Below, in pieces: positions 37,551 to 58,734 of a stretch of DNA of 64,000 bases (position 1 is its first letter; each line of letters begins with the position of its first letter). A model generated the notes under the pieces. It searched no databases, was not told where the DNA came from, and saw only the letters and a list, made by a program, of their open reading frames with translations. Position numbers and translations under genes: made by a program. Source of the DNA: Undaria pinnatifida (lineage: Eukaryota; Sar; Phaeophyceae; Laminariales; Alariaceae); NCBI GenBank assembly GCA_012845835.1, contig JABAKD010000023.1, positions 9,961,840 to 10,025,839 of the forward strand. Direction: 5' to 3'.

Positions 37551-37819
37551 TGTGAAATTAAAGGTGGGGGACACAGAGTGCCCCCTGCAGGTCTGCCAAT
37601 TGAGCAGGTCCTCGGAGAGTACTCACTTTCGTTTCTTCGTAGAGATGTAGCTTTATTCGTTTCCACCAGAGCCCGGGATAGCTTCTGAGATCGGAGGCGC
37701 GTGCCTCCGATCTAATTCCTAACTTCCCCGAATATAAACCGCCAACCTTATCATACGAAACCCATCCAAATGATCTCAAATTCGGATACATACAGGCCTT
37801 TCGAGGCCGTATCTTAACA
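37551..37819 (-). repeat. 3' LTR of the giant retrotransposon
   Basis: The LTR is 269 bp with TG and CA ends. On the transcribed (minus) strand it shows a TATA-like TTTATATT at 37,731-37,738, then a perfect 10-bp inverted repeat GATCGGAGGC-GCGT-GCCTCCGATC at 37,689-37,712, then a polyadenylation signal AATAAA at 37,652-37,657. That order (promoter, start region, poly(A) signal) fits U3-R-U5 read from right to left. Confidence 0.9.
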
Positions 37820-38673: not shown

Positions 38674-39556
38674 TCAACTGGCCACGGCCGCGCCTCGAGA
38701 TTCGTCTACGTTACGTTGAATTCCCCGAGGAAACGCACTGGCGATGTGAACTTGCAAGCACCAAGAGCCTCGTACGGCTCCCGTTGAAGTCGTGTAGCGC
38801 GCCGGGGGAAGAGGGAGTTTAATCGGTCCCGGGTCGTCCAGAAAGCGGACCAGGTATACCTTGTCCTCGGTAGTGCTCGCGCTGATTTTTCCTAGCCCCC
38901 ATAAACCATCGTCTTCCTTGTACCAAAAGTGGGCTCCCTTAGGAAGTACGGTGTCGTGGTAGCGACGGAGCTAATCGGTGCGGGAAACACAGGCGTAGCC
39001 CGGCGCTAGGAAACGTTCCCCGTTGTTGCGGAAGAGCTCACGCTGTGCCGCCCCGATCCGCATTCAGCGGTAAAGGCGATTTGTTTGGCGGTGCTGGTCC
39101 GGGGTTCCGGCCCAATAACGCAAGATGTGGGAGCGGGAGAGGTGAAGGTCCATTTCCCGCTCCCTGGACGGTTCGGAGAGTCCCGCCCAATGCGTCTTGT
39201 ATAGCACCGCGATGACGCCACCTCGCCCCCGTACTGACTGATGACCAGTGATCTGCTCCACCTCCAGCCGTTAGAGGGGAGTCGAAACGTCGTCTTGAGT
39301 GACGTGGTACGGCGGGGACTTCTTGGAAAATTTGTTGAGCACATACTGTGTCAGCCCCGCCGGTAGGTATTTGGGCATGTCCCCGCTGTCGTGGGGGTTG
39401 GCACAGGGTTTGCAGCGCTCGATAGCCACACGCCGACGAGCGTCCGAACCAGGCAGGTCGGAAGGGAGATCCAAATAAAGGAGGTTGCTCCCGAGCGGCG
39501 AGCCGTCCGGGGTCTCGGCGGCGGAACAGGGACCGACGGCCAGGACCTTGTATGGG
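38674..39556 (-). pseudogene. Pol C-terminal tail: GPY motif and post-integrase region, degenerate
   Basis: After a one-base frameshift near 39,555 the minus strand continues the integrase with a GPY-type motif (LNWT, GPYKVLAV), then LLYLDLPSDLPGSDARRRV, GDMPKYLPAGLTQYVLN, GHQSVRGRGGVIAVLYKTHW and ERFLAPGYACV. The last part is HFWYKEDDGLWGLGKIS and YLVRFLDDPGPIKLPLPPA, ending at a TGA at 38,674-38,676. The WYKxDDGLWGLGK and YLVRFLDDPGP pieces resemble a small Tudor/chromo-type barrel often found at gypsy pol C-termini. That is inference. In-frame stops lie at 39,271 (TAA), 39,064 (TGA) and 38,971 (TAG). Confidence 0.7.
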
Positions 39557-41993
39557 GCGTCCAGTTAAGCGCGAGTTTGGCCTTGAGTACCTTGGCGTCG
39601 GTATTCGCTTTCACCCTGGCGGATGGTAGAGGCAGATTTGTATACCCATGCCCAACCACCCACAGTGAAGTTAGGTGCTGGACGCAGCGCGTCGGCGAGG
39701 GCGGAGTTTCTGCGTGTCTACGGGGAACGGTGAGGGTGTGGTGTGCGCGGACAATGTCGTTCGCGCGCTTTTGCCGGTCGGTGGCCAAATCGCAATAGGC
39801 CAGGTGGTCACGGGCCAGACTCTGGTGTCCCACGACACCTTTGCGGTCGAAAGTCGTCAGGGGGAGCGGTGGGAGTCTGCCCATGTGGACCTCGTTGGGC
39901 GCCAAACCCGTCGCCGCGCTGACAGAGTTGTTGTAAGCGAATTCGACGTGGGGCAGATGCAAGTCGCAGTCGCCTTGTCGCTCGTTGACGACCATAGCCA
40001 GCATTTGTGCCATAGTGTGTTTTACCCGCTCAACGCCCCCGTTACAGTTGGGATGGTAGGAGCTTGTAGCAAGCTTGTGTACACCTAACAGCTGATATAC
40101 AGCTTGTGAAAGCTTGAAGCAGAACTGCAGTCCGTTGTCCGAGAGTATGGTGCGCGGGCACCCCCACAAGGGGATGTATTGGTTCACCAGGATATTGGCT
40201 GTACCTTCCGCGGTGAACTCAGCGGCAGTGACGGGGGACATGTCGGCCCGACGACTGAAGCGATCGGTGAACAGCAGGATGTAGGTGTTGCCTCGCGGTG
40301 TGACCGGAAGGGGGCCGAAGTAGTCAACACTGACGGCGATACCTGGACCTTCCGGCAGAGGCATTGTGATGATGGGCCAGCGGACAGTCAGCCGTTGGGT
40401 TTTTCGCGCTTGGCACTTCAAGCAGTGGCGAAGCCACCACCGGGTACACACACTCATGTCAATCCACCAATAAAAACGCTCCAGCTTGCGCAACGTGCGC
40501 GTGGTGCAAAGATGGCAGGAGGCCGTCGAGTGGCCAGCTTGCATGATCCAAGGGCGCATGAGCAGGGGAACGTAGATGCGAACTGGCTCGTTGTTTAGCA
40601 AGCTAGCAGCTCGCCCCACAGAGTTCGGTTTGTCAGAGCTTGTTTGCGGGAGTGTCGGTTTACGGACGAGCAGGACAAAGTCGTCGTCGGTTGTATGTAG
40701 TCGACCCTTATCCGCCAGTTCCTGGATGTCTGAGAGAGAGGGACGCTTGGGCGAGAGGTGGCATGCCAAAAAGTCCGGTGGCAGGGCTGACGGCCGGCCG
40801 ATAGAGATGTAACGTATCGTGGCGTGGCACGTCGGCTCTGCGTGTTGTTCGCGCTTCCAATCGGCATGTGAATAACGCGGGACGGAATCCGCGAATCGCA
40901 ACTCAGCAGCGTCGCCGAGGGCATCCGACCTTGTAAGTGTAGCCGGCGTTTCACCAGGAGGAGGCGTAAGCCGTAGGAGCGGAGTTCCCATAGGCTCTGC
41001 GTGGTCGTGGTCGGACGGAAGTGGTACCGTGCGGGCCGGCGGGTCGGCAAGAGTAGGGGTCGCGGCGACTGACGGAGCCGGCCGCGGCCGTCGGGCTCGC
41101 GGCGGAGTTGTAACTCGTCTGGGCGATGACTGGGGAACCCCGCCGGGCCCGAAGCCATAGTCGACAGCAGGAGGTGCCTTACCAGCTGCTGTTGCTGAAC
41201 GCCGGCGCGTCCGAGTGGAGATGAGGTCGGAAAAGGGCGTCATCGTCTGGGGCGCCGGAGATCCAAGCGAGGTTGGGACGGACGCGGTCGGGCCCCTGGG
41301 CTCGACGGGGTTTGTCCCTTGTACCGAGCTCCGGGAAGGAGTCGGTTGGGCCACTGATGTCGTGGCAGCCGGGGCTTCGGCGGAGTCCTCCTTGGTCACG
41401 ATGGGTACAGCAAAAACCGAAGCGAAATTGTAGTCGGCTGTACGCGAGCCCCCGCCTCGGCCGGGCGAGCTATCGACGGTGGCGGTGGATGCAGAAACAC
41501 GAGCGACGAATCTCCTGGAAGGAGTAGGAAAGTCGTCGAGCCTCATACGTGGACCGTGTGTGCGAAAATCGCAAAAGTCGGCAAGAGTGAGAGGAAGCCC
41601 ACCCAAGGCATTACTTTCGGTGCGGGGCATTAGCCCACCCAAGCCGACACCCGGTATCGGAGAAGAAGGAGTGTACAGCCCGCAAGCCCGTATGAGGTAT
41701 ATACCACCATCCTCAACAGGGGTAAGGCTCGTCGAACCATTGCGGTCGTGTTCCGTGGCAGGCTCCGGCAAGCGAGACAGGAAGTCAGCGTTGCCGTTTG
41801 CGCTTCCTTTTCGGTATTCGAGGGTGTAATCGAATGCGGTGAGGAACTCGAGCCATCTCTGGACTCGACCGTTGTGATTCCCAACTTTGCCTACGTTTTC
41901 CAGAGCCTTGTGGTCTGAGAATATTCGGACCTTGGTGCTCCAAAGGTAGCCGCGGAGGCGCTTGAGAGCCCAGACGATGCTGCCAGCCTCCAA
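39351..41993 (-). CDS. Pol: RNase H C-terminus, Pro-rich spacer and integrase
   Basis: The open frame is 880 codons. Residues 1-78 finish the RNase H and connection domain (IFSDHKALENVGK, YRKGSANGNADFLSRL). Residues 80-470 are a Pro/Ser/Thr-rich, probably disordered spacer, unusually long for this position. The integrase follows: a zinc-binding HHCC module at about 488-527 (H488, H494, C524, C527), then a DDE core with D557 (VSVDYFGPLP), D619 (ILSDNGLQF) and E655 (GGVERVKHT). LPHVEFAYNNS, at about 680-690, is typical of gypsy integrases. The frame leaves the true reading near 39,555 by a one-base deletion, so the final 70 or so residues are spurious. The start Met is internal; the real protein is a polyprotein continuing from the RT frame through a one-base deletion near 42,018. 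Confidence 0.85.
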   Translation of the reverse strand: MEAGSIVWALKRLRGYLWSTKVRIFSDHKALENVGKVGNHNGRVQRWLEFLTAFDYTLEYRKGSANGNADFLSRLPEPATEHDRNGSTSLTPVEDGGIYLIRACGLYTPSSPIPGVGLGGLMPRTESNALGGLPLTLADFCDFRTHGPRMRLDDFPTPSRRFVARVSASTATVDSSPGRGGGSRTADYNFASVFAVPIVTKEDSAEAPAATTSVAQPTPSRSSVQGTNPVEPRGPTASVPTSLGSPAPQTMTPFSDLISTRTRRRSATAAGKAPPAVDYGFGPGGVPQSSPRRVTTPPRARRPRPAPSVAATPTLADPPARTVPLPSDHDHAEPMGTPLLRLTPPPGETPATLTRSDALGDAAELRFADSVPRYSHADWKREQHAEPTCHATIRYISIGRPSALPPDFLACHLSPKRPSLSDIQELADKGRLHTTDDDFVLLVRKPTLPQTSSDKPNSVGRAASLLNNEPVRIYVPLLMRPWIMQAGHSTASCHLCTTRTLRKLERFYWWIDMSVCTRWWLRHCLKCQARKTQRLTVRWPIITMPLPEGPGIAVSVDYFGPLPVTPRGNTYILLFTDRFSRRADMSPVTAAEFTAEGTANILVNQYIPLWGCPRTILSDNGLQFCFKLSQAVYQLLGVHKLATSSYHPNCNGGVERVKHTMAQMLAMVVNERQGDCDLHLPHVEFAYNNSVSAATGLAPNEVHMGRLPPLPLTTFDRKGVVGHQSLARDHLAYCDLATDRQKRANDIVRAHHTLTVPRRHAETPPSPTRCVQHLTSLWVVGHGYTNLPLPSARVKANTDAKVLKAKLALNWTPHTRSWPSVPVPPPRPRTARRSGATSFIWISLPTCLVRTLVGVWLSSAANPVPTPTTAGTCPNTYRRG

Positions 41994-43483
41994 ATCGAGA
42001 GGAGTCCAATGCCTTTCGAGTCGAGCGTAGCTCGACTGATGTATGCGATGGGTTTTATGGAGCCGTCCGTCTGCTCCTGTTCGAGAGCGGCTCCGAACCC
42101 GTCGATGCAGGCATCGCAGTACACATGGAACGGGCGAGTGCCGTCAGCGACGGCGTCCCAATCAGGGAAAACTAGGACCGGCGGGGTCGTGAGCTCCGCC
42201 AAGATTTGTCTCACCAACTTCTCCATATCAGGCGTGAAGGCAAACTTTACCCCCTTCCGAAGGAGTGCGTTAATAGGACGAAGTCTCTTCGATAAGTCGG
42301 GCAAAAAATTGCGGTAATAGTTGATACCACCCATGAGTGCGTGCACCTGCTTAACGTCAGTGGGCATCGGCATATTGGTCAATGCCGACACTTTTTCCGA
42401 ATTTGGGCGTAGGCCTGCTGGAGAAATGGAGTGGCCTAGAAAGTTCGCATCGGTAGCGCCCAAACGCGCCTTCGAGGGCGAAAGCTTGAGATTATGCTTT
42501 CGAAGGCGTTCGGAGAGAGAGCGAATCGTCCGAACATGCATTACCGGGTCGGAATCGAACACGATGACATCGTCGAGGTAAGCTGCAACCTGTGTCAAAC
42601 CCTTGATCACCTCATTGATAACCTTGACGAACCACCCAGACGAGGAGCTGCTACCCTGGGGCATAACGAGCCACTCATAAAGGCCCGTGGGTGTGCAGAA
42701 CGCTGTGAGGGGAACTGTGTCCTTGTGTGCCGTTATCTGGTGGAACGAGGAAACCAAGTCGAACAGGGAAAACACCCGACCTGAGCCCAAGGAGTCCAGG
42801 ACCTGGTCCACGCGCGGAATCGGCAGTTGACTGAGCTTGCTAATTTGGTTGAGCTTCTTGTAGTTCACCATGATCCTCACACCGCCAGATTTCTTCGGGA
42901 TGACCACCAGCGGGCTCGAGTACGGTGAGGTCGAGTGCTGAATCAGCCCAGCCGCGAGGTACTGGTTAAGGGTCGCGTCCACTTCTCTGGCCAGTATAGG
43001 GTTTATGCGATGGGGCCGTGAAGTGACCGGAGCGCTGCCCTCCGGAACCGAGATTTGAAAGGGCATTAGGGAGCATGACCCAAACTCCGTCTTCGAGGTG
43101 GAGAACACGTCAGAAAAGTCGCAGAGCACATCCCCCAGTTGCTCAATGGTCGGGGGGTCCCAACCAGGGTCGTGTAAGTCGAACGCAATCTCCCGCAGGT
43201 GCGGTGGGAGTCGGGCCCAGACGCGTAGAAATGCAGAACGTTGGACCGGGTTCAAACGTTCCATAAGCGTCGGCGAGGGCGACGGTACGGCGGGAACTAT
43301 CTCCTCCGCGCCGGTCGGGCTCGCGACCGCAGAGACCTGGCTGTCCGAAGTCTGGCCAGGGTGATGACCCGCAGCCTCGATGGGGTGTTGCAAGGCACCC
43401 AGCGGGATGCGCAAAAGTGGGGCGTCGGCGACCCCGATAAGGTCGCCTGGCTCGAGGTCCGCGACACCTATGACGGGAAGCAC
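41891..43483 (-). CDS. Pol: reverse transcriptase and RNase H N-terminus
   Basis: The open frame is 530 codons. Residues about 115-350 form the RT: FSDVFSTSKTEFG, SPYSSPLVVIPKKSGGVRIM, SLFDLVSSFHQI, WLVMPQGSSSSSGWF and the catalytic AYLDDVIVFD with YLDD at 302-305 (42,569-42,580). The connection segment FLGHSISPAGLRPNSEKV and the RNase H start FHVYCDACIDGFGAALEQ, with Asp457, follow. The order and motifs are those of Ty3/gypsy. After about residue 489 (TLDSK) the frame is wrong: the expected ERHWTPLDLEAGS is readable one base away, so one base was lost near 42,018. It is separated from the upstream protease frame, in phase, by a single TGA at 43,493. Confidence 0.9.
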   Translation of the reverse strand: MLPVIGVADLEPGDLIGVADAPLLRIPLGALQHPIEAAGHHPGQTSDSQVSAVASPTGAEEIVPAVPSPSPTLMERLNPVQRSAFLRVWARLPPHLREIAFDLHDPGWDPPTIEQLGDVLCDFSDVFSTSKTEFGSCSLMPFQISVPEGSAPVTSRPHRINPILAREVDATLNQYLAAGLIQHSTSPYSSPLVVIPKKSGGVRIMVNYKKLNQISKLSQLPIPRVDQVLDSLGSGRVFSLFDLVSSFHQITAHKDTVPLTAFCTPTGLYEWLVMPQGSSSSSGWFVKVINEVIKGLTQVAAYLDDVIVFDSDPVMHVRTIRSLSERLRKHNLKLSPSKARLGATDANFLGHSISPAGLRPNSEKVSALTNMPMPTDVKQVHALMGGINYYRNFLPDLSKRLRPINALLRKGVKFAFTPDMEKLVRQILAELTTPPVLVFPDWDAVADGTRPFHVYCDACIDGFGAALEQEQTDGSIKPIAYISRATLDSKGIGLLSIWRLAASSGLSSASAATFGAPRSEYSQTTRLWKT

Positions 43484-43492
43484 CTGTCCTCC

Positions 43493-45364
43493 TCAAGCAA
43501 CAAAGTGTTTCTGTCCCGAAAGAACATCCGGCTGCGGCAGTATGTTGACAAGATAGTGTCCTGTGAGCGCAGGAGAGCCGTTACTGCGCACCAAGTTGAC
43601 CTCGAGCAGTTGGGGCTCGTCCGACAAAGTGACGCCTGTAAAGCCATCATAGCGAAGGTGGAGAGCACCGTTCGATGCTGCGGGGTCGACGGCATAAGCC
43701 GCTACGCCTGCTGTGGCGTGGTGGGACAACGTCAGCTCGCCCAAAACCCGATTATCGAGAGGACGAGGGCGCAGGGCGCGGTACGAACGGGTGTTGAAGC
43801 GCATCCAACTGTCGCGGCCCAGCAAGACAGCGTGCTGCATGACCGAAGGAGGGACCACGCATGCCCACACCGCGAGAGAGCATGTTGGTTCTTTTTCGAG
43901 GAAGAATTGAACGCTCAGACGGATGTGGGTCGCGGTCCGTAAAGGGGCGGATTCGCAAAAGCAACCCCAGGAGCGAGGGCTGCTAGGCCGCTCGCACGTC
44001 GATGAGGCGGCACCTACCGATAGCATACGATCCAACACGTCACGGCGGATGAAGGTTTGGGGGGAGCCAGTGTCAAGCAGCGCTGTACATATGTAGGGCG
44101 CAATAGCGTCCCCTCCGCTATGTATTGCAATATCGGTAGTGAAAGAATCGTCGTCCAGCGTCACGGTACCCCCAACGAGGCAGGGGCCATGTTCTGGCAG
44201 TGCGCGGTCTGAGGTGCCGCGAGAAGCTACCGCCAAAACCTCCGGGCTTTGATCGGCGGGTGTACCCGAAAAATAGGCCGAAGGAGGGCCTTGGGCAGCG
44301 CCGACCGCGGTCCCCAAGCGCGACTGCTGAGCGGACGAAAATTCATGGATTCCAGCATTCCCGGTGGGCCTGCGGAACCGACGAGGGGAGGCCGGGTGTG
44401 GCGATCCGTCCTCGCAGTCGCGAATTGCTTCGCGAACGGCAGAGAGTGCCTCACCGAGCGAATGTTTTCCTCTCCACTTGTGTGGATCCTTGGCGTGGGG
44501 GTCGTCCGCCCGGAGACCAATACCCCACACAGTGTCTAGAAGACTGGCCTCTGCCAGAAATTTGTTGCCTGTGCTCAAAAGGTGATTTTTCATGGCTGGG
44601 TTCTGCGTAAATTTGGCATAGTTGCCAGATAACACGGCATTTTGCTTCTCCCTGTCCCAAACGGCGGCGTCAAAATTGCGCACACCTCGACCGACGCGTT
44701 TGTGTGTGCTGGGGTCAGACGATGACATGATGAGCTCCACTGCGCGATGGTCTTTAAAAAGCCGAGACTTTTCAGCCATCATAAACTGCTCCGCGCAAGA
44801 ATATGAGACGTCGTCGACGACAAACGACGAAGGAGACCACTGCGAGAAAAAGGACGGCGATCGCCAGAACAAAACTACTTTGTCTGTAGAGTATTCGAGG
44901 GAAGGGTCCAAAGTCGACGGTGCCAACCCGTCGGAGGCCGTGTTAGGCATATGAGCTTGTAATGTCCCCGTCTGGGGACACCAGTCTCTGGCACTTTGGG
45001 CCTGCAGCGTCCCCGTCTGGGAACGCCCGGCCTCGGGAGCACGACGCGAGCCCGAACCCACGGGTGGTCGCGTCGTGGCCTTGTCGCTCTTTGGCGTAAA
45101 ATCGCAAGGAACTGCTCTCACTGCACCCGAAGGGACAGGGGGCTCGGAGCTGTTACTGCTTGACGAGAGGCGCGATTCTTCCGTATCTTCACGGGAATAG
45201 CGTCCAGCTGATCGGGCTGGAGGCCGTGGCGTCACCACTGGCCCGTTGCGCAGTGTCGGATCTATATCCTGTGCCACTGGGGCAGACGTAGCCTGATGCA
45301 CGTGGGTTAGCGTGAGCAGGGCCCGTAGACCCTGTGGGTGTCTTCGAGAGCGGGGCTCGGGCAA
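43493..45364 (-). CDS. Polyprotein part: NADAR domain plus retropepsin-like protease
   Basis: The open frame is 623 codons. Residues 1-155 are a low-complexity linker with a duplicated QTGTLQA motif. Residues about 161-318 form a NADAR (YbiA/DUF1768) domain (separate entry). After a short linker, residues about 394-525 are a retropepsin-type aspartic protease: VTLDDDSFTTDIAIH, the active-site LLDTGSPQTFI with DTGS at 431-434 (44,063-44,074), and the C-terminal ILVD-like HAVLLGRDSWMRF at 511-523. The region ends in ILPQPDVLSGQKHFVA then TGA at 43,495-43,493, in phase with the RT frame that follows after three codons. The Met at 45,364 is probably not a real start, because the linker frame upstream (45,189-45,785 and 45,554-45,994) reads on in other phases. 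Confidence 0.85.
   Translation of the reverse strand: MPEPRSRRHPQGLRALLTLTHVHQATSAPVAQDIDPTLRNGPVVTPRPPARSAGRYSREDTEESRLSSSSNSSEPPVPSGAVRAVPCDFTPKSDKATTRPPVGSGSRRAPEAGRSQTGTLQAQSARDWCPQTGTLQAHMPNTASDGLAPSTLDPSLEYSTDKVVLFWRSPSFFSQWSPSSFVVDDVSYSCAEQFMMAEKSRLFKDHRAVELIMSSSDPSTHKRVGRGVRNFDAAVWDREKQNAVLSGNYAKFTQNPAMKNHLLSTGNKFLAEASLLDTVWGIGLRADDPHAKDPHKWRGKHSLGEALSAVREAIRDCEDGSPHPASPRRFRRPTGNAGIHEFSSAQQSRLGTAVGAAQGPPSAYFSGTPADQSPEVLAVASRGTSDRALPEHGPCLVGGTVTLDDDSFTTDIAIHSGGDAIAPYICTALLDTGSPQTFIRRDVLDRMLSVGAASSTCERPSSPRSWGCFCESAPLRTATHIRLSVQFFLEKEPTCSLAVWACVVPPSVMQHAVLLGRDSWMRFNTRSYRALRPRPLDNRVLGELTLSHHATAGVAAYAVDPAASNGALHLRYDGFTGVTLSDEPQLLEVNLVRSNGSPALTGHYLVNILPQPDVLSGQKHFVA
44411..44884 (-). other. 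NADAR (YbiA/DUF1768-like) domain inside the retroelement polyprotein
   Basis: About 155 residues show the full NADAR pattern in order: VLFWRSPSFFSQWSPSSFVV, DVSYSCAEQFMMAEKSRLF, DPSTHKRVGRGVRNFD, VWDREKQNAVLSGNYAKFTQ, LLSTGNKFLAEASLLDTVWG, IGLRADDP, and the C-terminal WRGKHSLGEALSAVRE. The conserved FW, S-x-x-E-Q, the L-x-x-T-G-x-x-x-L-x-E-A-S-x-x-D-x-x-W-G-I-G block and W-x-G-x-x-x-L-G are all present, with no stop or frameshift. Family members are N-glycosidases: YbiA acts on riboflavin-pathway intermediates, and other NADARs remove ADP-ribose from guanine bases in nucleic acid (DarT partners). In this element it may reverse host ADP-ribosylation of element nucleic acid; this is inference. 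Confidence 0.92.
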
Positions 45365-45994
45365 GTGGAAAAAAATTCTTCGCCCGAGAGGGCTCCTTCC
45401 AGTTAGCCCTCTTGGAGGAGAGAGACGAGGTAGCTAAGCTTGTCGGCTGCTCCTTGATGGGAAAAAGGATAGAGCGCCCGCTACTATCGCGAAGAGACAC
45501 CGACTCAAATCTTGGAAAAGATCTCGGTGCATATGGGTTGGCTTTCCCACACCTCAAGCCAACCGCCGCTTTACGGTCAGGAAGAGGTGGAGACGAACCC
45601 GCTCGCGTATGGGGGCGATGCGTCGTCGCCGCAGTCTTCTTGCTGCGCGACGCGTGCCTGAGGGGAGCGTGCAAGGTGGAGGCTCCTGAGTCATGGTTAA
45701 GGGGGGCAGCGTTAGGGGCGCGTGCCTCCGTTGTCGAGCTTGAGCCACGGCAGGGGTTAACGGCGTTGGAAGCACTGGTCCCCATTGCCGAACTCGGACC
45801 ATGATCGAGGGGGCGTCACTTTGGGCGCGCACCCCCTTCGTAGAAAATGTAACCTGGCTGGGGGGGGGCATACTGGGAGCCCTGGTCCCCACCGCCGGCA
45901 TTGCGCCGTGAAAGTCATCAGGCGACGTAGGAGCCCTTGGGCTAAGTAATTTGTGCCGCGCCACGTGTAAGGCGAACGACAGGCACACGAGCAT
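45189..45994 (-). other. Linker coding region between gag and NADAR, phase uncertain
   Basis: Two minus-strand frames overlap here: 45,994-45,554 (starting MLVCLSFALHVARHK) and 45,785-45,189 (starting MGTSASNAVNPCRG). Both are Pro/Ser/Arg-rich and low complexity. A continuous polyprotein would need one phase change just after the gag stop at 45,942 and one or two more before 45,364. Whether these are programmed shifts, decay or separate genes cannot be decided from one copy. Confidence 0.5.
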
Positions 45995-47390
45995 CTTGTG
46001 AAATCAAAGGAAGTGTCCCCGACAGTGCCGTCGGCGTACGGGTCGGGTGTGCCGTACCGCCGTCGCCCTGTTTGTTGCCAGTGCGAAAGGTACCTGGTTG
46101 GCGCGCGTTGGGGTTTCCGCTCGGATTGTGGGTTGCCCCGAAACGTTTCCCCGGAGCAGACACGGACGCCGAGGAGGCTGGCGAGGGCGGGACAGCACCT
46201 TGTTGGCCAGGCGTGTATGTGCTGTTGTTGTTACCGCTGTGGCTGTTTGTCTGTCCCTGATCCCGTGGGTACCCTCGTGATTGGTTTGAACGATTTCGGC
46301 GATTTTTGTTGTACGTTTGCGAGCGAGAAGAGCGTCCGTCGCGGCGGTAGCTAACCATACGTGCTTGCCACCGTCGGAAAACGTCATCATCGCCAAGTTG
46401 GCAAAGTTCAGGGTTTAGACAGCTGCCGGCGTTAATAAAGGGATGCCTACAGTTGCGTAAGGAATGAGTGTCTTCGTGGCAGCTGAGGCAATGACCTCTG
46501 TTTTCTCGGAGAGCCGCGGCGCGGGCAGAGGGCGTGAGGAGGTCGCTCCAGAGGGCAGGGTCGTCGGTCTTAAACGAGGCACTAACAGCGAAAACTTCTG
46601 CATAGTGTTGTTCTTCTAGGGGCCAGCAGTTGGACATTTTGTCGAGCCAGGGGTCGGTGGAAGCAACAATCGGCATGACAATCGGATTATGGCTCGAACC
46701 CGTCTGCCAAGAAGGCGACTGGGACAGCACTCGGCCCTGGCCGCGCCCATGAACGGCGGGCCGGGGCCCCGACGGGGCGGATGACCGCGATCCCGTCGAA
46801 GAAACAGGTAGAGAAAAATGTTTTTCGCCGTTGACGGCAGGTGTCTTATTGTGCGCCAAGTCACTGAACGCTTTCCACCTGGCATCCAACGAGGCGTATG
46901 GCCGTGGGTTCGTAGCCTTCGAGCCAGGGTATAACGTAGGCATGAGCGTCGGAAACTGCTCGTTGACCGCCATCCTAACCACCTCCAGCACGACATCCGT
47001 CCCCGGGGACAAAACACGCTCACTCCCCGTGACTGCCGATACTAGCACACGGAACTCCCGACTGAAATCAGAAAAAGGCGTGCCGTTACACACTCCAAAA
47101 GTGTGCAACTTAGTGTAGCCTTCGCCCGTGTCGACCCGGTCAAAGTGCGTCACGAGCAGGCGTAGCAGGAGGGTGAAAGCCTCGGGCCCAGATGCTCCTC
47201 CGTCCAACGCTCTTGACACCGGTCCAAACCAATCGTCGATCAAGGTGGTCATGCGAGCGTTCGTGGGCCTGTCAGGTGTTATGGCACGGTTGAATGCCAG
47301 GCGGAGGGGGTGGATCCAACCGGGAACCCACGTGGGGGCACGTACACCCTCTTGACAACTTTCGTCACAGCGCATGAGTATGTCAGTCAT
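45942..47390 (-). CDS. Gag C-terminal half: capsid-like region and zinc knuckle
   Basis: The open frame is 482 codons. Residues 1-160 are mostly helical in character (GWIHPLRLAFNRA, LIDDWFGPVSRAL, AFTLLLRLLVTHFD, FSREFRVLVSAVTG) and resemble a retroelement capsid domain. Residues 301-314, CLSCHEDTHSLRNC, form a perfect CX2CX4HX4C zinc knuckle, the nucleic-acid-binding signature of Gag. They are followed by HPFINAGSCLNPELC and a basic Arg/Asn/Gln-rich tail. The frame is in the same phase as the upstream gag frame, with only one TAG (47,433-47,435) and 14 sense codons between that stop and this Met. The two halves were very probably one protein. Confidence 0.85.
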   Translation of the reverse strand: MTDILMRCDESCQEGVRAPTWVPGWIHPLRLAFNRAITPDRPTNARMTTLIDDWFGPVSRALDGGASGPEAFTLLLRLLVTHFDRVDTGEGYTKLHTFGVCNGTPFSDFSREFRVLVSAVTGSERVLSPGTDVVLEVVRMAVNEQFPTLMPTLYPGSKATNPRPYASLDARWKAFSDLAHNKTPAVNGEKHFSLPVSSTGSRSSAPSGPRPAVHGRGQGRVLSQSPSWQTGSSHNPIVMPIVASTDPWLDKMSNCWPLEEQHYAEVFAVSASFKTDDPALWSDLLTPSARAAALRENRGHCLSCHEDTHSLRNCRHPFINAGSCLNPELCQLGDDDVFRRWQARMVSYRRDGRSSRSQTYNKNRRNRSNQSRGYPRDQGQTNSHSGNNNSTYTPGQQGAVPPSPASSASVSAPGKRFGATHNPSGNPNARQPGTFRTGNKQGDGGTAHPTRTPTALSGTLPLISQDARVPVVRLTRGAAQIT

Positions 47391-47432
47391 GGCAGACCGA
47401 ACCGAACGTGTGAGTTGCTGTGTGCCGTCAGA

Positions 47433-48983
47433 CTAGTTCAAAGAGGCGGGGAACGGTAGCACAGAAATGCGTGATACGTCCTTGTGGGAGAGCTTAACAT
47501 AGGCGCGCCTAACCGAGTTATCGAGCGTGGATTTAGCTAGAGCCGCGGCGGTAGCAAGTACGGCGGTACGCTCGCGAGCCAAATCCGAAGAAACAGGCTT
47601 GGTGTGGTCACCCGACACAGTTAGTTTGCTCAGCCGGTCGGCAGACGAGGCAATATCCACCAGGGAAGGAATTACTTGCCTCCTGCCAGCTACCACGGTT
47701 ACCTCCCCGTGGTCCGTGTTCGAGCTCGAAGACGAGCGGGAGGACGTTGACGACTCGTCCCACGCTGAGGGCCCTCGTGTGCTGTTTCGCCGTCCTCCGG
47801 TGCCTCCTCCCGAGCTGCGACCGCCGCGCCGGTTGGTTCGGGCCTCGTTGCTCCCTTGGCGGCGCTGTGGGCCACCACCCGTACCCGACGCTCCTCCCGC
47901 GCTTCCGCCACCGTTGCCACCACCGCGGCGGTTGTGGTGGCCACCACTCCCACAGTTTTCCCCGTTTCCCCCACTCTGGCCGCCACCACCCCCGGAGTTG
48001 CCACCTCCACGGTTGCGGTCCCCCCGATCACGGCTGCCACCGCGCCGCTGTTTGGTGGAGCGCCTTCCTTCCAGCGCTTCCTTTGGAGTCGGCCACAGGA
48101 CTGGGTCAGGGGCGTCGTCGTGGACCAATCGTAAGGCTTTGACCAAAGCGAGGGTAGGTGCTCGCCTCATCTGCCCGAAGGCGGACGATTTGTCCCGGCG
48201 AGCCCAGACTGCTCCGACCGAAAGGTCTTCCGCGTTGAACGACGACCGTCGCTCTGAAGTTAGAAGAGCCTTGGCCGCTGCTATCACCGCCTCCGCCAGA
48301 TGCGCCGAGAACTCGACCCTCGGCGTGGTAGCCATGTATTGGACGCTGCCAGACATGATAACGTCGTCCCCGGGTCGTGTATCTTGGGAGGCAACACTCA
48401 GCGGGCGCGCCGAGGAAGGGGCAGCTCTCGCCGGAGTCGCTGTAGCTGAGAGGGCAACGGCTTGGCGTGCCCTCTCGACCGCGTGGGATGCCTCACGGCG
48501 TCGACGTTCGTCATCTAGCCGTTTGCGTTCCTCTCGTCGAAGCAGGGTCGCGTTGGCTTCGTCGAGAGCTCTTCGCGCCCGAGAAATTTCAGACTCTGAG
48601 TCTGAGGGGCCAGCATGGGAGCGCTGGTCTCCGTAGCTCTGGGGAAGGCGCTCTGTCGAGCGCGGAGAGGTCAGATGTCGACGGTGGTGCTCTGAGGACA
48701 GCTGGAGATGCTCCCTCGAGGCTGGGGATATTTGTCGTCGTGATGTCTCCGCGCCCGGTAGGAGTTTTTCCGCCTCGTCGACCGGCGAGTCGGGGTGGTC
48801 GGACGGTGTGCCGTGTTGTTGACTCGTGTTGGAGTCACTATCGTCGTCCAGGGTTTCGGCGCGTCCTCCTCGTCTCGATTCGCGGGACCCCGAGCGTTCC
48901 CGTCCTTCTCCCTGGGCCTCCTGGATGGGGCGCGTGGAGGACCGCAGCCTGCCCGAGTAGCCCCCATCGTCACTGGTGGACAT
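47433..48983 (-). CDS. Gag N-terminal half, disordered and RGG-rich
   Basis: The frame encodes 516 residues from ATG 48,983. That ATG was preferred over an upstream one at 49,109 because of its ACCATG context and because it begins the acidic/Ser-rich composition typical of the rest (MSTSDDGGYSG). Residues 1-200 are charged and probably disordered, with a helical Arg/Glu segment (REERKRLDDERRRRE). Residues about 230-330 look globular. Residues about 320-445 are a Gly/Arg/Asn RGG-type nucleic-acid-binding region. A helical C-terminus (RTAVLATAAALAKSTLDNSV) runs to a TAG at 47,433. No retroviral matrix domain is recognised. The plus-strand mirror frame of 369 codons is a composition shadow. Confidence 0.75.
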   Translation of the reverse strand: MSTSDDGGYSGRLRSSTRPIQEAQGEGRERSGSRESRRGGRAETLDDDSDSNTSQQHGTPSDHPDSPVDEAEKLLPGAETSRRQISPASREHLQLSSEHHRRHLTSPRSTERLPQSYGDQRSHAGPSDSESEISRARRALDEANATLLRREERKRLDDERRRREASHAVERARQAVALSATATPARAAPSSARPLSVASQDTRPGDDVIMSGSVQYMATTPRVEFSAHLAEAVIAAAKALLTSERRSSFNAEDLSVGAVWARRDKSSAFGQMRRAPTLALVKALRLVHDDAPDPVLWPTPKEALEGRRSTKQRRGGSRDRGDRNRGGGNSGGGGGQSGGNGENCGSGGHHNRRGGGNGGGSAGGASGTGGGPQRRQGSNEARTNRRGGRSSGGGTGGRRNSTRGPSAWDESSTSSRSSSSSNTDHGEVTVVAGRRQVIPSLVDIASSADRLSKLTVSGDHTKPVSSDLARERTAVLATAAALAKSTLDNSVRRAYVKLSHKDVSRISVLPFPASLN

Positions 48984-49431
48984 GGTGCCTAGGTGTAGTG
49001 AAGGGGGGGGGATAGGAACGACGCGTGAAGAAGCTATGGAGACAGATAAATTGTTGTGGTGTTCCTGCTCCAAGGAGCGGTATATCTGTGTTTCAGCAAA
49101 CAGCAACAATATGGGCCTTAACGCCGTCCAGCCTTAGTGATGGTAGCAGCCACGTCAACTAGCCCTATAAGAGAAGTACAGCAGTAACAAGGTACCAATC
49201 ATCATAACCGCAACATAAGAGCAGCGCCCAGTCTGACCGTAGGGTATATGGGTAACGCTCGCACGAACCGCAGTACAAGGAGCCAAACCTGGGCAGCACT
49301 GACCCCAACCGCAGTGCAGGGGGCGCAACACAGTAAAGGTACGTCTGCAGCCATCGCACTTAAACAGGGTTCATTCGACCTAGGCGAGGGGAGGTAGCAC
49401 AGGAGAGCGTCGCCCAAAACGCCCACGCTCA
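48984..49431 (-). other. Leader between satellite array and gag ATG, with degenerate repeat units
   Basis: From about 49,170 to 49,440 imperfect pieces of the array unit can be seen (GCACGAACCGCAGTACAAGGAGCCAAACCTGGGCAGCA, CGCACTTAAACAGGGTTCATTCGACCTAGG). They look like array edge units that have diverged. No start codon in the right phase precedes 48,983 closely. Confidence 0.5.
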
Positions 49432-52400
49432 TCGGACCAAAACGGTCAGCATTTACCCTAGGTGTAGTGTAGGGGTTATCACAAACAAGGTTCGCCCAAC
49501 ACGCCGACGCTCATCGCACCAAAACAGGCAGCATTTACCCTAGGTGTAGTGTAGGGGTGGAGCACAGTGTAAGATCGCCCAACACGCTGACACTCAGCGC
49601 ACCAAAACGGGCAGAATATCCCTTGGTGTAGTGTAGGGGGGGAGTACAGTGAAAGGTAACCCAAAAGGCTGACACTCGTCGCACCAAAACAGGCAGCATT
49701 TAACCTAGGTGTAGTGTAGGGGTGGAAGCAAAGTGTAAGATAGCCCCACACGCTGACACTCATCACACCAAAACGGGCAGCATTTGCCCTAGGTGTAGTG
49801 TAGGGGGGGGAGCACAGTGAAAGGTCACCCAACACGCTGACACTCGTCGCACCAAAACAGGCAGCTTTTACCCTAGGTGTAGTGTAGGGGTGAAGCACAG
49901 TGTAAGATCGCCCAACACGCTGACACTCATCGCACCAAACCGAGCAGAATTTTCCGGAGGTGTAGTGTAGGGGGGGGAGCACAGTGAAAGGTCACCAAAC
50001 ACGCTGACACTCGTCGAACTAAAACAGGCAGCATTTAACCTAGGTATAGTGTAGGGGTGGAAGCACAGTGTAAGATCGCCCAACACGATGATACTCATAG
50101 CACCAAAACGGGCAGAATTTTACCCGAGGTGTAGTGTAGAGGGGGAAGCACAGTGAAAGGTCACCCAACACGATGACATTCGTCGCACCAAAACAGGCAG
50201 CATTTACCCTAGGTGTAGTGTAGGGGTGGAAGCACAGTGTATGATCGCCCAACACGCTGACACTCGTCGCACCAAAACGGGCAGCATTTACCCTAGGTGT
50301 AGTGTAGGGGGGGGAGCACAGTGAAAAGTCACCCAACACGCTGACACTCGTCGCACCTAAACAGGCAGCATTTACCCTAGGTGTAGTGTAGGGGTGGAAG
50401 CACAGTGCAAGATCGCGCAACACGCTGACACTCATCGCACCAAAACGGGCAGCAGTTACCCTAGGTGTAGTGTAGGGGGGGGAGCACAGTGAAAGGTCAC
50501 CCAACACGCTGACACTCGTCGCACCAAAACGGGCAGCATTTACCCTAGGTGTAGTGTAGGGGGGGGAGCACAGTGTAAGATCGCCCAACACGCTGACACT
50601 CATCGCACCAAAACGGGCAGCATTTACCCTAGGTGTAGTGTAGGGGTGGAGCACAGTGTAAGATCGCCCAACACGCTGACACTCAGCGCACCAAAACGGG
50701 CAGAATATATCTTGGTGTAGTGTAGGGGGGGAGTACAGTGAAAGGTAACCCAAAAGGCTGACACTCGTCGCACCAAAACAGGCAGCATTTAACCTAGGTG
50801 TATTGTAGGGGTGGAAGCAAAGTGTAAGATAGCCCCACACGCTGACACTCATCACACCAAAACGGGCAGCATTTGCCCTAGGTGTAGTGTAGGGGGGGGA
50901 GCACAGTGAAAGGTCACCCAACACGCTGACACTCGTCGCACCAAAACAGGCAGCTTTTACCCTAGGTGTAGTGTAGGGGTGGAAGCACAGTGTAAGATCG
51001 CCCAACACGCTGACACTCATCGCACCAAACCGAGCAGAATTTTCCGGAGGTGTAGTGTAGGGGGGGGAGCACAGTGAAAGGTCACCAAACACGCTGACAC
51101 TCGTCGAACTAAAACAGGCAGCATTTAACCTAGGTATAGTGTAGGGGTGGAAGCACAGTGTAAGATCGCCCAACACGATGATACTCATAGCACCAAAACG
51201 GGCAGAATTTTACCCGAGGTGTAGTGTAGAGGGGGAAGCACAGTGAAAGGTCACCCAACACGATGACATTCGTCGCACCAAAACAGGCAGCATTTACCCT
51301 AGGTGTAGTGTAGGGGTGGAAGCACAGTGTATGATCGCCCAACACGCTGACACTCGTCGCACCAAAACGGGCAGCATTTACCCTAGGTGTAGTGTAGGGG
51401 GGGGATCACAGTGAAAAGTCACCCAACACGCTGACACTCGTCGCACCTAAACAGGCAGCATTTACCCTAGGTGTAGTGTAGGGGTGGAAGCACAGTGCAA
51501 GATCGCGCAACACGCTGACACTCATCGCACCAAAACGGGCAGCAGTTACCCTAGGTGTAGTGTAGGGGTTATCACAAACAAGGTTCGCCCAACACGCCGA
51601 CGCTCATCGCACCAAAACAGGCAGCATTTACCCTAGGTGTAGTGTAGGGGCGGAGCACAGTGTAAGATCGCCCAACACGCTGACACTCATCGCACCAAAA
51701 CGGGCAGCATTTACCCTAGGTGTAGTGTAGGGGGGGAGTACAGTGAAAGGTAACCAAAAAGGCTGACACTCGTCGCACCAAAACAGGCAGCATTTAACCT
51801 AGGTGTAGTGTAGGGGTGGAAGCAAAGTGTAAGATAGCCCAACACGCTGACACTCATCACACCAAAACGGGCATCATTTGCCCTAGGTGTAGTGTAGGGG
51901 GGGGAGCACAGTGAAAGGTCACCCAACACGCTGACACTCGTCGCACCAAAACAGGCAGCTTTTACCCTAGGTGTAGTGTAGGGGTGGAAGCACAGTGTAA
52001 GATCGCCCAACACGCTGACACTCATCGCACCAAAACGAGAAGAATTTTCCGGAGGTGTAGTGTAGGGGGGGGAGCACAGTGAAAGGTCACCAAACACGCT
52101 GACACTCGTCGAACTAAAACAGGCAGCATTTAACCTAGGTATAGTGTAGGGGTGGAAGCACAGTGTAAGATCGCCCAACACGATGATACTCATAGCACCA
52201 AAACGGGCAGAATTTTACCCGAGGTGTAGTGTAGAGGGGGAAGCACAGTGAAAGGTCACCCAACACGATGACATTCGTCGCACCAAAACAGGCAGCATTT
52301 ACCCTAGGTGTAGTGTAGGGGTGGAAGCACAGTGTAAGATCGCCCAACACGCTGACACTCGTCGCACCAAAACGGGCAGCATTTACCCTAGGTGTAGTGT

Positions 52401-55400
52401 AGGGGGGGGATCACAGTGAAAAGTCACCCAACACGCTGACACTCGTCGCACCTAAACAGGCAGCATTTACCCTAGGTGTAGTGTAGGGGTGGAAGCACAG
52501 TGCAAGATCGCGCAACACGCTGACACTCATCGCACCAAAACGGGCAGCTTTTACCCTAGGTGTAGTGTAGGGGTGGAAGCACAGTGTAAGATCGCCCAAC
52601 ACGCTGACACTCATCGCACCAAAACGAGAAGAATTTTCCGGAGGTGTAGTGTAGGGGGGGGAGCACAGTGAAAGGTCACCAAACACGATGACACTCGTCG
52701 AACTAAAACAGGCAGCATTTAACCTAGGTATAGTGTAGGGGTGGAAGCACAGTGTAAGATCGCCCAACACGATGATACTCATAGCACTAAAACGGGCAGA
52801 ATTTTACCCGAGGTGTAGCGTAGAGGGGGAAGCACAGTGAAAGGTCACCCAACACGCTGACATTCGTCGCACCAAAACAGGCAGCATTTACCCTAGGTGT
52901 AGTGTAGGGGTGGAAGCACAGTGTATGATCGCCCAACACGCTGACACTCGTCGCACCAAAACGGGCAGCATTTACCCTAGGTGTAGTGTAGGGGGGGGAG
53001 CACAGTGAAAAGTCACCCAACACGCTGACACTCGTCGCACCTAAACAGGCAGCATTTACCCTAGGTGTAGTGTAGGGGTGGAAGCACAGTGCAAGATCGC
53101 GCAACAAGCTGACACTCATCGCACCAAAACGGGCAGCAGTTACCCTAGGTGTAGTGTAGGGGTTATCACAAACAAGGTTCGCCCAACACGCCGACGCTCA
53201 TCGCACCAAAACAGGCAGCATTTACCCTAGGTGTAGTGTAGGGGTGGAGCACAGTGTAAGATCGCCCAACACGCTGACACTCAGCGCACCAAAACGGGCA
53301 GAATTTACCCTTGGTGTAGTGTAGGGGGGGAGTACAGTGAAAGGTAACTCAAAAGGCTGACACTCGTCGCACCAAAACAGGCAGCATTTAACCTAGGTGT
53401 AATGTAGGGGTGGAAGCAAAGTGTAAGATAGCCCAACACGCTGACACTCATCACACCAAAACGGGCAGCATTTACCCTAGGTGTAGTGTAGGGGTGGAGC
53501 ACAGTGTAAGATCGCCCAACACGCTGACACTCAGCGCACCAAAACGGGCAGAATTTACCCTTGGTGTAGTGTAGGGGGGGAGTACAGTGAAAGGTAACCA
53601 AAAAGGCTGACACTCGTCGCACCAAAACAGGCAGCATTTAACCTAGGTGTAGTGTAGGGGTGGAAGCAAAGTGTAAGATTGCCCAACACGCTGACACTCA
53701 TCACACCAAAACGGGCAGCATTTGCCCTAGGTGTAGTGTAGGGGGGGGAGCACAGTGAAAGGTCACCCAACATGCTGACACTCGTCGCACCAAAACAGGC
53801 AGCTTTTACCCTAGGTGTAGTGTAGGGGTGGAAGCACAGTGTAAGATCGCCCAACACGCTGACACTCATCGCACCAAACCGAGCAGAATTTTACGGAGGT
53901 GTAATGTAGGGGGGGGAGCACAGTGAAAGGTCACCAAACACGCTGACACTCGTCGAACTAAAACAGGCAGCATTTAACCTAGGTATAGTGTAGGGGTGGA
54001 AGCACAGTGTAAGATCGCCCAACACGATGATACTCATAGCACCAAAACGGGCAGAATTTTACCCGAGGTGTAGTGTAGAGGGGGAAGCACAGTGAAAGGT
54101 CACCCAACACGATGACATTCGTCGCACCAAAACAGGCAGCATTTACCCTAGGTGTAGTGTAGGGGTGGAAGCACAGTGTAAGATCGCCCAACACGCTGAC
54201 ACTCGTCGCACCAAAACGGGCAGCATTTACCCTAGGTGTAGTGTAGGGGGGGGATCACAGTGAAAAGTCACCCAACACGCTGACACTCGTCGCACCTAAA
54301 CAGGCAGCATTTACCCTAGGTGTAGTGTAGGGGTGGAAGCATAGTGCAAGATCGCGCAACACGCTGACACTCATCGCACCAAAACGGGCAGCTTTTACCC
54401 TAGGTGTAGTGTAGGGGTGGAAGCACAGTGTAAGATCGCCCAACACGCTGACACTCATCGCACCAAAACGAGAAGAATTTTCCGGAGGTGTAGTGTAGGG
54501 GGGGGAGCACAGTGAAAGGTCACCAAACACGATGACACTCGTCGAACTAAAACAGGCAGCATTTAACCTAGGTATAGTGTAGGGGTGGAAGCACAGTGTA
54601 AGATCGCCCAACACGATGATACTCATAGCACCAAAACAGGCAGAATTTTACCCGAGGTGTAGCGTAGAGGGGGAAGGACAGTGAAAGGTCACCCAACACG
54701 CTGACATTCGTCGCACCAAAACAGGCAGCATTTACCCTAGGTGTAGTGTAGGGGTGGAAGCACAGTGTATGATCGCCCAACACGCTGACACTCGTCGCAC
54801 CAAAACGGGCAGCATTTACCCTAGGTGTAGTGTAGGGGGGGGAGCACAGTGAAAAGTCACCCAACACGCTGACACTCGTCGCACCTAAACAGGCAGCATT
54901 TACCCTAGGTGTAGTGTAGGGGTGGAAGCACAGTGCAAGATCGCGCAACAAGCTGACACTCATCGCACCAAAACGGGCAGCAGTTACCCTAGGTGTAGTG
55001 TAGGGGTTATCACAAACAAGGTTCGCCCAACACGCCGACGCTCATCGCACCAAAACAGGCAGCATTTACCCTAGGTGTAGTGTAGGGGTGGAGCACAGTG
55101 TAAGATCGCCCAACACGCTGACACTCAGCGCACCAAAACGGGCAGAATTTACCCTTGGTGTAGTGTAGGGGGGGAGTACAGTGAAAGGTAACTCAAAAGG
55201 CTGACACTCGTCGCACCAAAACAGGCAGCATTTAACCTAGGTGTAATGTAGGGGTGGAAGCAAAGTGTAAGATAGCCCAACACGCTGACACTCATCACAC
55301 CAAAACGGGCAGCATTTACCCTAGGTGTAGTGTAGGGGTGGAGCACAGTGTAAGATCGCCCAACACGCTGACACTCAGCGCACCAAAACGGGCAGAATTT

Positions 55401-58400
55401 ACCCTTGGTGTAGTGTAGGGGGGGAGTACAGTGAAAGGTAACCAAAAAGGCTGACACTCGTCGCACCAAAACAGGCAGCATTTAACCTAGGTGTAGTGTA
55501 GGGGTGGAAGCAAAGTGTAAGATTGCCCAACACGCTGACACTCATCACACCAAAACGGGCAGCATTTGCCCTAGGTGTAGTGTAGGGGGGGGAGCACAGT
55601 GAAAGGTCACCCAACATGCTGACACTCGTCGCACCAAAACAGGCAGCTTTTACCCTAGGTGTAGTGTAGGGGTGGAAGCACAGTGTAAGATCGCCCAACA
55701 CGCTGACACTCATCGCACCAAACCGAGCAGAATTTTCCGGAGGTGTAATGTAGGGGGGGGAGCACAGTGAAAGGTCACCAAACACGCTGACACTCGTCGA
55801 ACTAAAACAGGCAGCATATAACCTAGGTATAGTGTAGGGGTGGAAGCACAGTGTAAGATCGCCCAACACGATGATACTCATAGCACCAAAACGGGCAGAA
55901 TTTTACCCGAGGTGTAGTGTAGAGGGGGAAGCACAGTGAAAGGTCACCCAACACGCTGACATTCGTCGCACCAAAACAGGCAGTATTTACTCTAGGTGTA
56001 GTGTAGGGGTGGAAGCACAGTGTATGATCGCCCAACACGCTGACACTCGTCGCACCAAAACGGGCAGCATTTACCCTAGGTGTAGTGTAGGGGGGGGAGC
56101 ACAGTGAAAAGTCACCCAACACGCTGACACTCGTCGCACCTAAACAGGCAGCATTTACCCTAGGTGTAGTGTAGGGGTGGAAGCACAGTGCAAGATCGCG
56201 CAACACGCTGACACTCATCGCACCAAAACGGGCAGCAGTTACCCTAGGTGTAGTGTAGGGGTTATCACAAACAAGGTTCGCCCAACACGCCGACGCTCAT
56301 CGCACCAAAACAGGCAGCATTTACCCTAGTTGTAGTGTAGGGGTGGAGCACAGTGTAAGATCGCCCAACACGCTGACACTCAGCGCACCAAAACGGGCAG
56401 AATTTACCCTTGGTGTAGTGTAGGGGGGGAGTACGGTGAAAGGTAACCCAAAAGGCTGACACTCGTCGCACCAAAACAGGCAGCATTTAACCTAGGTGTA
56501 ATGTAGGGGTGGAAGCAAAGTGTAAGATTGCCCAACACGCTGACACTCATCACACCAAAACGGGCAGCATTTGCCCTAGGTGTCGTGTAGGGGGGGGAGC
56601 ACAGTGAAACGTCACCCAACACGCTGACACTCGTCGCACCAAAACAGGCAGCTTTTACCCTAGGTGTAGTGTAGGGGTGGAAGCACAGTGTAAGATCGCC
56701 CAACACGCTGACACTCATTGCACCAAAACGAGCAGAATTTTCCGGACGTGTAGTGTAGGGGGGGAAGCACAGTGAAAGGTCACCAAACACGCTGACACTC
56801 GTCGCACCAAAACAGGCAGCATTTAACCTAGGTGTAATGTAGGGGTGGAAGCAAAGTGTAAGATAGCCCAACACGCTGACACTCATCACACCAAAACAGG
56901 CAGCATTTACCCTAGGTGTAGTGTAGGGGGGGGAGCACAGTGTAAGATCGCCCAACACGCTGACACTCAGCGCACCAAAACGGGCAGAATTTACCCTTGG
57001 TGTAGTGTAGGGGGGGAGTACAGTGAAAGGTAACCCAAAAGGCTGACACTCGTCGCACCAAAACAGGCAGCATTTAACCTAGGTGTAATGTAGGGGTGGA
57101 AGCAAAGTGTAAGATAGCCCAACACGCTGACACTCATCACACCAAAACGGGCAGCATTTGCCCTAGGTGTAGTGTAGGGGGGGGAGCACAGTGAAAGATC
57201 ACCCAACACGCTGACACTCGTCGCACCAAAACAGGCAGCTTTCACCCTAGGTGTAGTGTAGGGGTGGAAGCACGGTGTAAGATCGCCCAACACGCTGACA
57301 CTCATCGCACCAAACCGAGCAGAATTTTCCGGAGGTGTAGTGTAGGGGGGGGAGCACAGTGAAAGGTCACCAAACACGCTGACACTCGTCGAACTAAAAC
57401 GGGCAGCATTTAACCTAGGTATAGTGTAGGGGTGGAAGCACAGTGCAAGATCGCCCAACACGATGATACTCATCGCACCAAAACGGGCAGAATTTTACCC
57501 GAGGTGTAGTGTAGAGGGGGAAGCACAGTGAAAGGTCACCCAACACGCTGACAATCGTCGCGCCAAAACAGGCAGTAATTACTCTAGGTGTAGTGTAGGG
57601 GTGGAAGCACAGTGTAAGATCGCCCAACACGCTGACACTCGTCGCACCAAAACAGGCAGCATTTCCCCTAGGTGTAGTGTAGGGGGGGGAGCACAGTGAA
57701 AAGTCACCCAACACGCTGACACTTGTCGCACCTAAACAGGCAGCATTTACCCTAGGTGTAGTGTAGTGGTGGAAGCACAGTGTAAGATCGCGCAACACGC
57801 TGACACTCATCGCACCAAAACGGGCAGCAGTTACCCTAGGTGTAGTGTAGGGGGGGGAACACAGTGAAAGGTCGCTTAACACGCTGACACTCATCGCACT
57901 AAAACGGGCAGCATTTACCCTAGGTGTAGTGTAGGGGGGGGAGCACAGTGAAAAGTCACCCAACACGCTGACACTCGTCGCACCAAAACAGGCAGCATTT
58001 ACCCTAGGTGTAGTGTAGGGGTGGAAGCACAGTGTAAGAGCGCCCAACACGCTGACACTCATCGCACCAAAACGAGCAGCATTTACCCTAGGTGTAGTGG
58101 GGGAACACAGTGAAAAGTCACCCAACACGCTGACACTCGTCGCACCAAAACAGGCAGCATTTACCCTAGGTGTAGTGTAGGGGTGGAAGCACAGTGTAGG
58201 ATCGCCCAACACGCTAACACTCGTCGCACCAAAACGGGCATCATTTACCCTAGGTGTAGTGTAGGGGGGGGAGCACAGTGAAAGGTCACCCAACACGCTG
58301 GCACTTGTCGCACCAAAACAGGCAGCATTAACCCTAGGTGTAGTGTAGGGTTGGAAGCACAGTGTATGATCGTCCAACACGCTGACACTCATCGCACCAA

Positions 58401-58497
58401 AACGGGCAGCATTTACCCTAGGTGTAATGTAGGGGGGGGAGCACAGTGAAAGGTCACCCAACACGCTGACAATCGTCGCACCAAAACGGGCAGTATA
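49432..58497 (-). repeat. Satellite-like array, ~108 units of ~84 bp, with higher-order repeats
   Basis: Tandem units of 82-84 bp (mean about 83.8) have the plus-strand consensus GGTGTAGTGTAGGGG, then AGCACAGTG, AAGATCGCCCAACACGCTGAC, ACTCATCGCACCAAAACGGG and CAGCATTTACCCTA. Two alternating subtypes exist: GGGGTGGAAGCACAGTGTAAGATCGCC, and GGGGGGGGAGCACAGTGAAAGGTCACC. A marker unit (TTATCACAAACAAGG) recurs at 49,476, 51,569, 53,163, 55,007 and 56,262, giving blocks of about 25, 19, 22 and 15 units. The blocks 53,163-55,006 and its predecessor share an exact 1,844-bp offset over long stretches, and 49,560-50,550 repeats at +1,090. The array lies inside the retrotransposon leader, upstream of gag. 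Confidence 0.95.
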
Positions 58498-58734
58498 ACC
58501 CTCCCATACAAAGTAGTTTCCCCCGACCGCACTGAAGGGGGACGGTCGCGCCTGCAGTAGTGCTGATTGCTGCAGTATCACTGCTGTGTTCACAGGTAAC
58601 GGTAATTTCAACCGCAACAAGATGGGTAGTGTAGTACCAACACCAGCTGTAGAAAAATGTGCACGCCCACAGTCGAATAGAAAGGCTGTTTGCCCCCAAA
58701 GGTACCGCATTAAACGGGCTGTTCTCCACTGCAC
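57415..58734 (-). other. Longest array-encoded open frame, 439 codons of 28-aa repeats
   Basis: Because 84 is a multiple of three and the unit lacks minus-strand stops, the minus strand stays open over many units, encoding repeats of the type YTTPRVNAACFGATSVSVLG plus DLSLCSPP. The frame starts outside the array (MQWRTARLMRYLWG...) and contains about 14 repeats. Another long one spans 50,040-51,188 (382 codons). Units of 82-83 bp break the frame at intervals. I have no evidence that these are translated. Confidence 0.4.

Follow-up and report, generated by a model that had tools for sequence, protein, structure and literature searches.

A NADAR domain of the YbiA subfamily in the Pol region of an apparently degraded Ty3/gypsy element of Undaria pinnatifida

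The presence of a NADAR domain in an LTR retrotransposon has been described for Ectocarpus sp. 7 (Dinatale et al., 2025, PMC12477816), the sole report of this combination that was found in a literature search covering titles and abstract openings. In the available portion of that study, NADAR is described in one of the four Gypsy lineages of Ectocarpus (e.g. Gypsy-12_Ec32), where it occupies the same region of Pol and is highly conserved across all families. According to the same authors, the nearest NADARs outside Ectocarpus are almost all bacterial, and a role in the processing of the RNA intermediate was proposed. In the accessible parts of the reports on NADARs from bacteria, phages and an oomycete, the measured activity is the hydrolysis of ADP-ribose from guanine in DNA (PMC11543638, PMC11125620). 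These sources also give a catalytic glutamate (E125 in the NADAR of Phytophthora nicotianae) as the marker of the YbiA subfamily, versus an aspartate in BC4488 or a histidine in the phage enzymes. NADARs embedded in RNA-virus polyproteins were interpreted, in the part of the source at hand, as a counter to host ADP-ribosylation (PMC9503650).

A comparable arrangement was found in the window, i.e. the whole stretch of 64,000 nucleotides of U. pinnatifida that was analysed (contig JABAKD010000023.1). A preceding sequence-only reading had taken NADAR to be unfamiliar as an LTR-retrotransposon domain; this view was given up, as the domain is already published as lineage-wide in one Ectocarpus Gypsy lineage. 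The architecture itself is known, having been anticipated by the 2025 study. The features of the element are collected in the table.

Features of the NADAR-bearing element (positions in the window)
Feature	Position	Strand	Basis
5' LTR, 267 bp	60422..60688	-	TG...CA ends; alignment to the other LTR
Candidate primer-binding site, TGG start, 2 bases inside of the 5' LTR	60406..60419	-	read from the sequence
Tandem repeat array of ~84 bp, leader between 5' LTR and gag	49283..58502	.	self-comparison and repeat search
Gag-like frame, part 1, closing with an in-frame TAG (47433-47435)	47433..49133	-	open frame; no Pfam match
Gag-like frame, part 2, same register as part 1; zinc knuckle CX2CX4HX4C (46449-46490)	45942..47432	-	open frame and motif; no Pfam match
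N-terminal part of Pol, NADAR and protease frame, 646 aa, closing with TGA (43493-43495)	43493..45433	-	open frame, Pfam, motif
NADAR domain, YbiA subfamily	44420..44869	-	PF08719 profile and residue comparison
DTGS aspartic-protease motif, starting at residue 454	44063..44074	-	motif
Reverse transcriptase and start of RNase H, YLDD (42569-42580)	41891..43492	-	RVT_1 E 5.7e-26, RT_RNaseH_2 E 7.4e-12
Remainder of RNase H and integrase, shifted frame (H2C2 zinc finger, rve)	39351..42143	-	RT_RNaseH E 7.8e-14, Integrase_H2C2 E 8.6e-9
Chromodomain-like piece 3' of integrase, flanked by two stops	39067..39270	-	PF00385 E 0.059, sub-threshold
3' LTR, 269 bp	37551..37819	-	alignment to the other LTR

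The element would measure about 23 kb, about 9.2 kb of which consists of the tandem array. The flanking LTR pair, as expected for Ty3/gypsy, could be aligned over 267 bases with 8 mismatches and 2 gap columns, giving a Jukes-Cantor distance of 0.031. A G-rich stretch is present ahead of the 3' LTR. The outer flanks read GATTA and CTAAG and do not match, and a 5-bp target-site duplication was thus not observed. The long frames crossing the array are explained by the repeat length, as 84 is a multiple of 3. The array apparently belongs to the element and contains repeated, nearly identical blocks of about 1 kb. Scanning the window for tRNA genes (ARAGORN) and for Rfam families (gathering threshold) gave no match. 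Elsewhere in the window, a dispersed repeat family occurs in both orientations (22732-23440, 30973-31664, 32754-33315, 34968-35206 and 12173-12430), with copies about 90-99% identical over their shared parts. A gap of 500 N is located at 31854-32353, and a frame of 213 aa on the minus strand (7640-8281) looks by eye like a small protein, rich in cysteine, that is secreted or anchored.

The succession protease, reverse transcriptase, RNase H and integrase typical of Ty3/gypsy was recovered from the coding parts. RVT_1, RT_RNaseH, RT_RNaseH_2 and Integrase_H2C2 scored above the Pfam cut-offs, while the match to rve (E 3.8e-6) stayed below with 27.5 bits for a cut-off of 32.6. The protease was recognised by its DTGS motif alone, since the top Pfam match of this part, Peptidase_A2B, was non-significant (E 0.2). 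The frame containing NADAR and the protease motif is in a different register from the gag-like frames, and it shares its register with the reverse transcriptase, which resumes past the TGA. The gag zinc knuckle, the YLDD of the reverse transcriptase and the matching LTRs reported by the sequence-only reading were all recovered. At the 3' end of the coding region, the assignment of the chromodomain-like piece is suggestive only; a PDB sequence search with this piece returned four elastase rows (E 0.65-0.9), which are meaningless. Further past it, a stretch with a weak SH3-like match (38677-38970, PF25369, E 0.029, sub-threshold) might represent another domain of the reader type. Gag, pol and the end of integrase contain stops and frame changes, which may be interpreted as post-insertion decay, and the window copy has probably lost the ability to produce Pol. 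The order of the element would be gag, NADAR, protease, reverse transcriptase, RNase H and integrase, followed by a chromodomain-like tail, and the element would be a degraded Ty3/gypsy copy of the NADAR-bearing kind published for Ectocarpus. Both statements form part of the overall explanation given below, which is tentative as a whole, mechanism included.

The identity of the NADAR domain was investigated by profile search and residue comparison. PF08719 matched residues 189-338 of the frame over practically the whole domain (profile positions 2-163 of 163) with an E-value of 2.1e-46 and 158.6 bits, versus a cut-off of 35.1, and the domain is of the NADAR/YbiA fold. This agrees with the complete NADAR domain in one open frame announced by the sequence-only reading for 43493-45364, a span lying inside the 646-aa frame, and the profile check against Pfam that it had proposed thus gave a clear match. 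The distance to the protease motif was corrected, as DTGS starts 116 residues past the end of the Pfam domain and not within about 75. Eight of the nine residues named for the NADAR of P. nicotianae are identical in the element (E215, K222, K245, R249, W259, E295, D300 and W303). The ninth, R93 of PDB entry 8bau, corresponds to K263, in a column which is mostly C among relatives. E295 was aligned with the catalytic glutamate E125, which places the domain in the YbiA subfamily. Four residues conserved at 90% or more are changed in the element (A223 to S, V294 to A, P298 to L and N324 to H), and some of these changes may have arisen after insertion. Judged from these comparisons, the domain is complete, belongs to the YbiA subfamily and keeps nearly all of the compared ligand-site residues.

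Conservation was further analysed in an alignment with 87 relatives, unevenly sampled with 49 of them from Bacillota. The relatives had been fetched by six query words of 8 residues, and 86 of the 87 hold EQFMMAEK exactly, so that conservation is built in at these places. The word columns were therefore left out of the count, for which the 112 remaining columns occupied in 60 or more of the 87 relatives were used. The element agrees with the consensus in 25 of the 28 columns conserved at 97% or more, in 6/7 at 90-97%, 13/23 at 70-90%, 3/17 at 50-70% and 11/37 below. The contrast between 25/28 and 27/77 columns is significant (Fisher p 5e-7); keeping the search words in gives 37/40 versus 37/103, values inflated by the word-based fetching. 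As read from the alignment, the changes are distributed as in an enzyme under constraint. Some of the branch leading to the element (length 1.16), along which the constraint acted, may be older than the capture. The absence of stops and frameshifts in the domain had been considered in the sequence-only reading as a hint of selection lasting until recently. This argument was rejected: from the divergence of the LTRs, no more than 0.27 new stops are expected in the 450 bases of the domain, with a probability of 0.76 of seeing none (substitutions only), so that a stop-free domain is uninformative. Over the coding pieces counted, about 4.9 new stops are expected. The column conservation is the better evidence for selection.

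The same conservation bears on two other explanations. NADAR could have no catalytic job and be retained as a structural or nucleic-acid-binding spacer of Pol. This is consistent with its presence in just one of the four Ectocarpus Gypsy lineages, as given in the available portion of PMC12477816, which implies that Pol can work without it, and the accessible literature describes no assay of a NADAR from a retroelement. The conservation of 8/9 named residues and of 25/28 near-invariant columns speaks against a mere spacer, which is considered quite unlikely. A single copy could also have picked up a host or bacterial gene once, without function, which would fit the finding of one copy within the window. 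Such an isolated capture is very improbable in view of the constraint on the near-invariant columns and of the lineage-wide conservation described for Ectocarpus in that study.

The origin of the domain was addressed with relatives sought in prokaryote, viral and phage collections. A word-based scan of a prokaryote genome collection gave 106 relatives, and the 80 best of these were used further. Among these 80, the 13 best rows belong to Nannocystis, other Myxococcota or deltaproteobacterial bins and Planctomycetota, with 50-56% identity. Viral contigs contributed 7 relatives (42-48%), 6 of which fell in the neighbouring group of the tree and one among Bacteroidota. The 660 phage records were all below 60% identity, the best reaching 52% over 74% of the query, and none was placed in the tree. 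In the tree of 88 rows, the element grouped with 14 Myxococcota/Planctomycetota rows (support 96/80) on a long branch, of which the tree program warned. Two alternative placements, with a group of 8 viral/Polyangiaceae rows (p-AU 0.417) and with the 65 other rows (p-AU 0.42), were not rejected, and for this reason a Myxococcota/Planctomycetota source, first considered from the best matches and the support value, is not claimed. A virus source is likewise possible. Taken together, the ancestry of NADAR is probably bacterial-type, the particular source not being settled. Five candidate stretches in viral contigs yielded no confirmed relative of the reverse transcriptase, and no obvious toxin partner was seen beside the bacterial relatives when the ORF lists of 7 of the 80 genome loci were scanned by eye. 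With relatives that come from bacteria and viruses, a chance resemblance could also be considered, or an assembly artefact fusing a bacterial gene to a retrotransposon. This is scarcely credible, as NADAR and the protease motif share an uninterrupted frame, the reverse transcriptase follows in that frame past one stop, the profile match is very strong (E 2.1e-46), and a parallel is published for Ectocarpus in the available text of PMC12477816.

The explanation tentatively preferred as a whole is as follows. An ancestral element would have captured a NADAR, probably from a bacterial-type source; the domain would be synthesised within Pol, carried along in the particle and perhaps released by the protease. 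There it would hydrolyse guanine ADP-ribose in the RNA or single-stranded cDNA of the element, and this removal would lift a block of reverse transcription imposed by a host ADP-ribosyltransferase. The choice of ADP-ribose removal from element RNA or cDNA as the likeliest role follows from the analogy with the NADARs of RNA viruses and the AlkB of orchid Gypsy elements. In the available portions of the literature, no substrate, host ADP-ribosyltransferase or effect on retrotransposition is reported for a retroelement NADAR. The sequence-only reading had likewise proposed a NADAR in gypsy Pol which removes ADP-ribose. Its structural part stands, with a real domain next to the protease motif and ligand residues nearly all kept, while the role is plausible and unproven. 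The main competing explanation, possible albeit doubtful, is that the substrates of NADAR are small molecules derived from NAD or by-products of RNA processing (e.g. ADP-ribose phosphates, NAD-cap products, cyclic ADP-ribose) and not ADP-ribosylated nucleic acid of the element, or that NADAR otherwise serves the processing of the RNA intermediate. As far as the accessible sources go, E. coli YbiA cleaves riboflavin intermediates, orphan NADARs have no known physiological target, and small ADP-ribose derivatives were proposed as targets for the NADARs of phages and other DNA viruses (PMC9503650), while the RNA-processing idea was put forward for the Ectocarpus elements (PMC12477816). Against it stands the guanine-ADP-ribose hydrolysis measured for the bacterial, phage and oomycete enzymes.

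Returning to the removal of ADP-ribose from guanine, it is conceivable, if unlikely, that hosts tag the guanine of retrotransposon RNA or cDNA with ADP-ribose as a defence and that a particle-borne bacterial-type NADAR erases the tag. Such tagging and erasing, equally unlikely, would be the equivalent in eukaryotes of the arms race between DarT and NADAR, in parallel to the NADARs of RNA viruses and the AlkB of the orchid Gypsy elements. If the domain were an active eraser of guanine ADP-ribose and needed for retrotransposition, this would point to nucleic-acid ADP-ribosylation as a control on eukaryotic mobile elements, of which no report was met in the accessible literature. With a ligand site that is nearly intact, such a role lends itself to direct testing.

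When compared by description with the Ectocarpus elements, the window copy is a further member of this kind and might even come from the families described there. Gypsy-12_Ec32 is cited as an example with a C-terminal chromodomain. The window element has the sub-threshold chromodomain-like piece, and its leader array of ~84 bp finds no mention for Ectocarpus in the available portion of the study (PMC12477816). Tx1 LINEs of Crassostrea gigas, reported in the same text, likewise carry NADAR in a retrotransposon protein; they are however non-LTR elements with a divergent domain in ORF1. The orphan YbiA-subfamily NADAR of P. nicotianae and myxobacterial YbiA have the fold, the subfamily glutamate and most ligand-site residues in common with the element. 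From what the accessible parts of the reports describe, these are standalone enzymes outside Pol, some of the myxobacterial ones being partners of a YarT toxin (PMC11543638, PMC11125620). Nidoviruses, hepe-like viruses and picornaviruses have NADAR within a replication polyprotein, as in the element, but are positive-strand RNA viruses (PMC9503650, in the part available). Finally, Gypsy elements of Phalaenopsis have captured an AlkB RNA-demethylase domain, also an enzyme removing a modification from nucleic acid and also in a large element (25 kbp). According to the available portion of that work, AlkB differs in having its own frame, in being an unrelated enzyme and in its demonstrated in vitro activity (PMC9289625).
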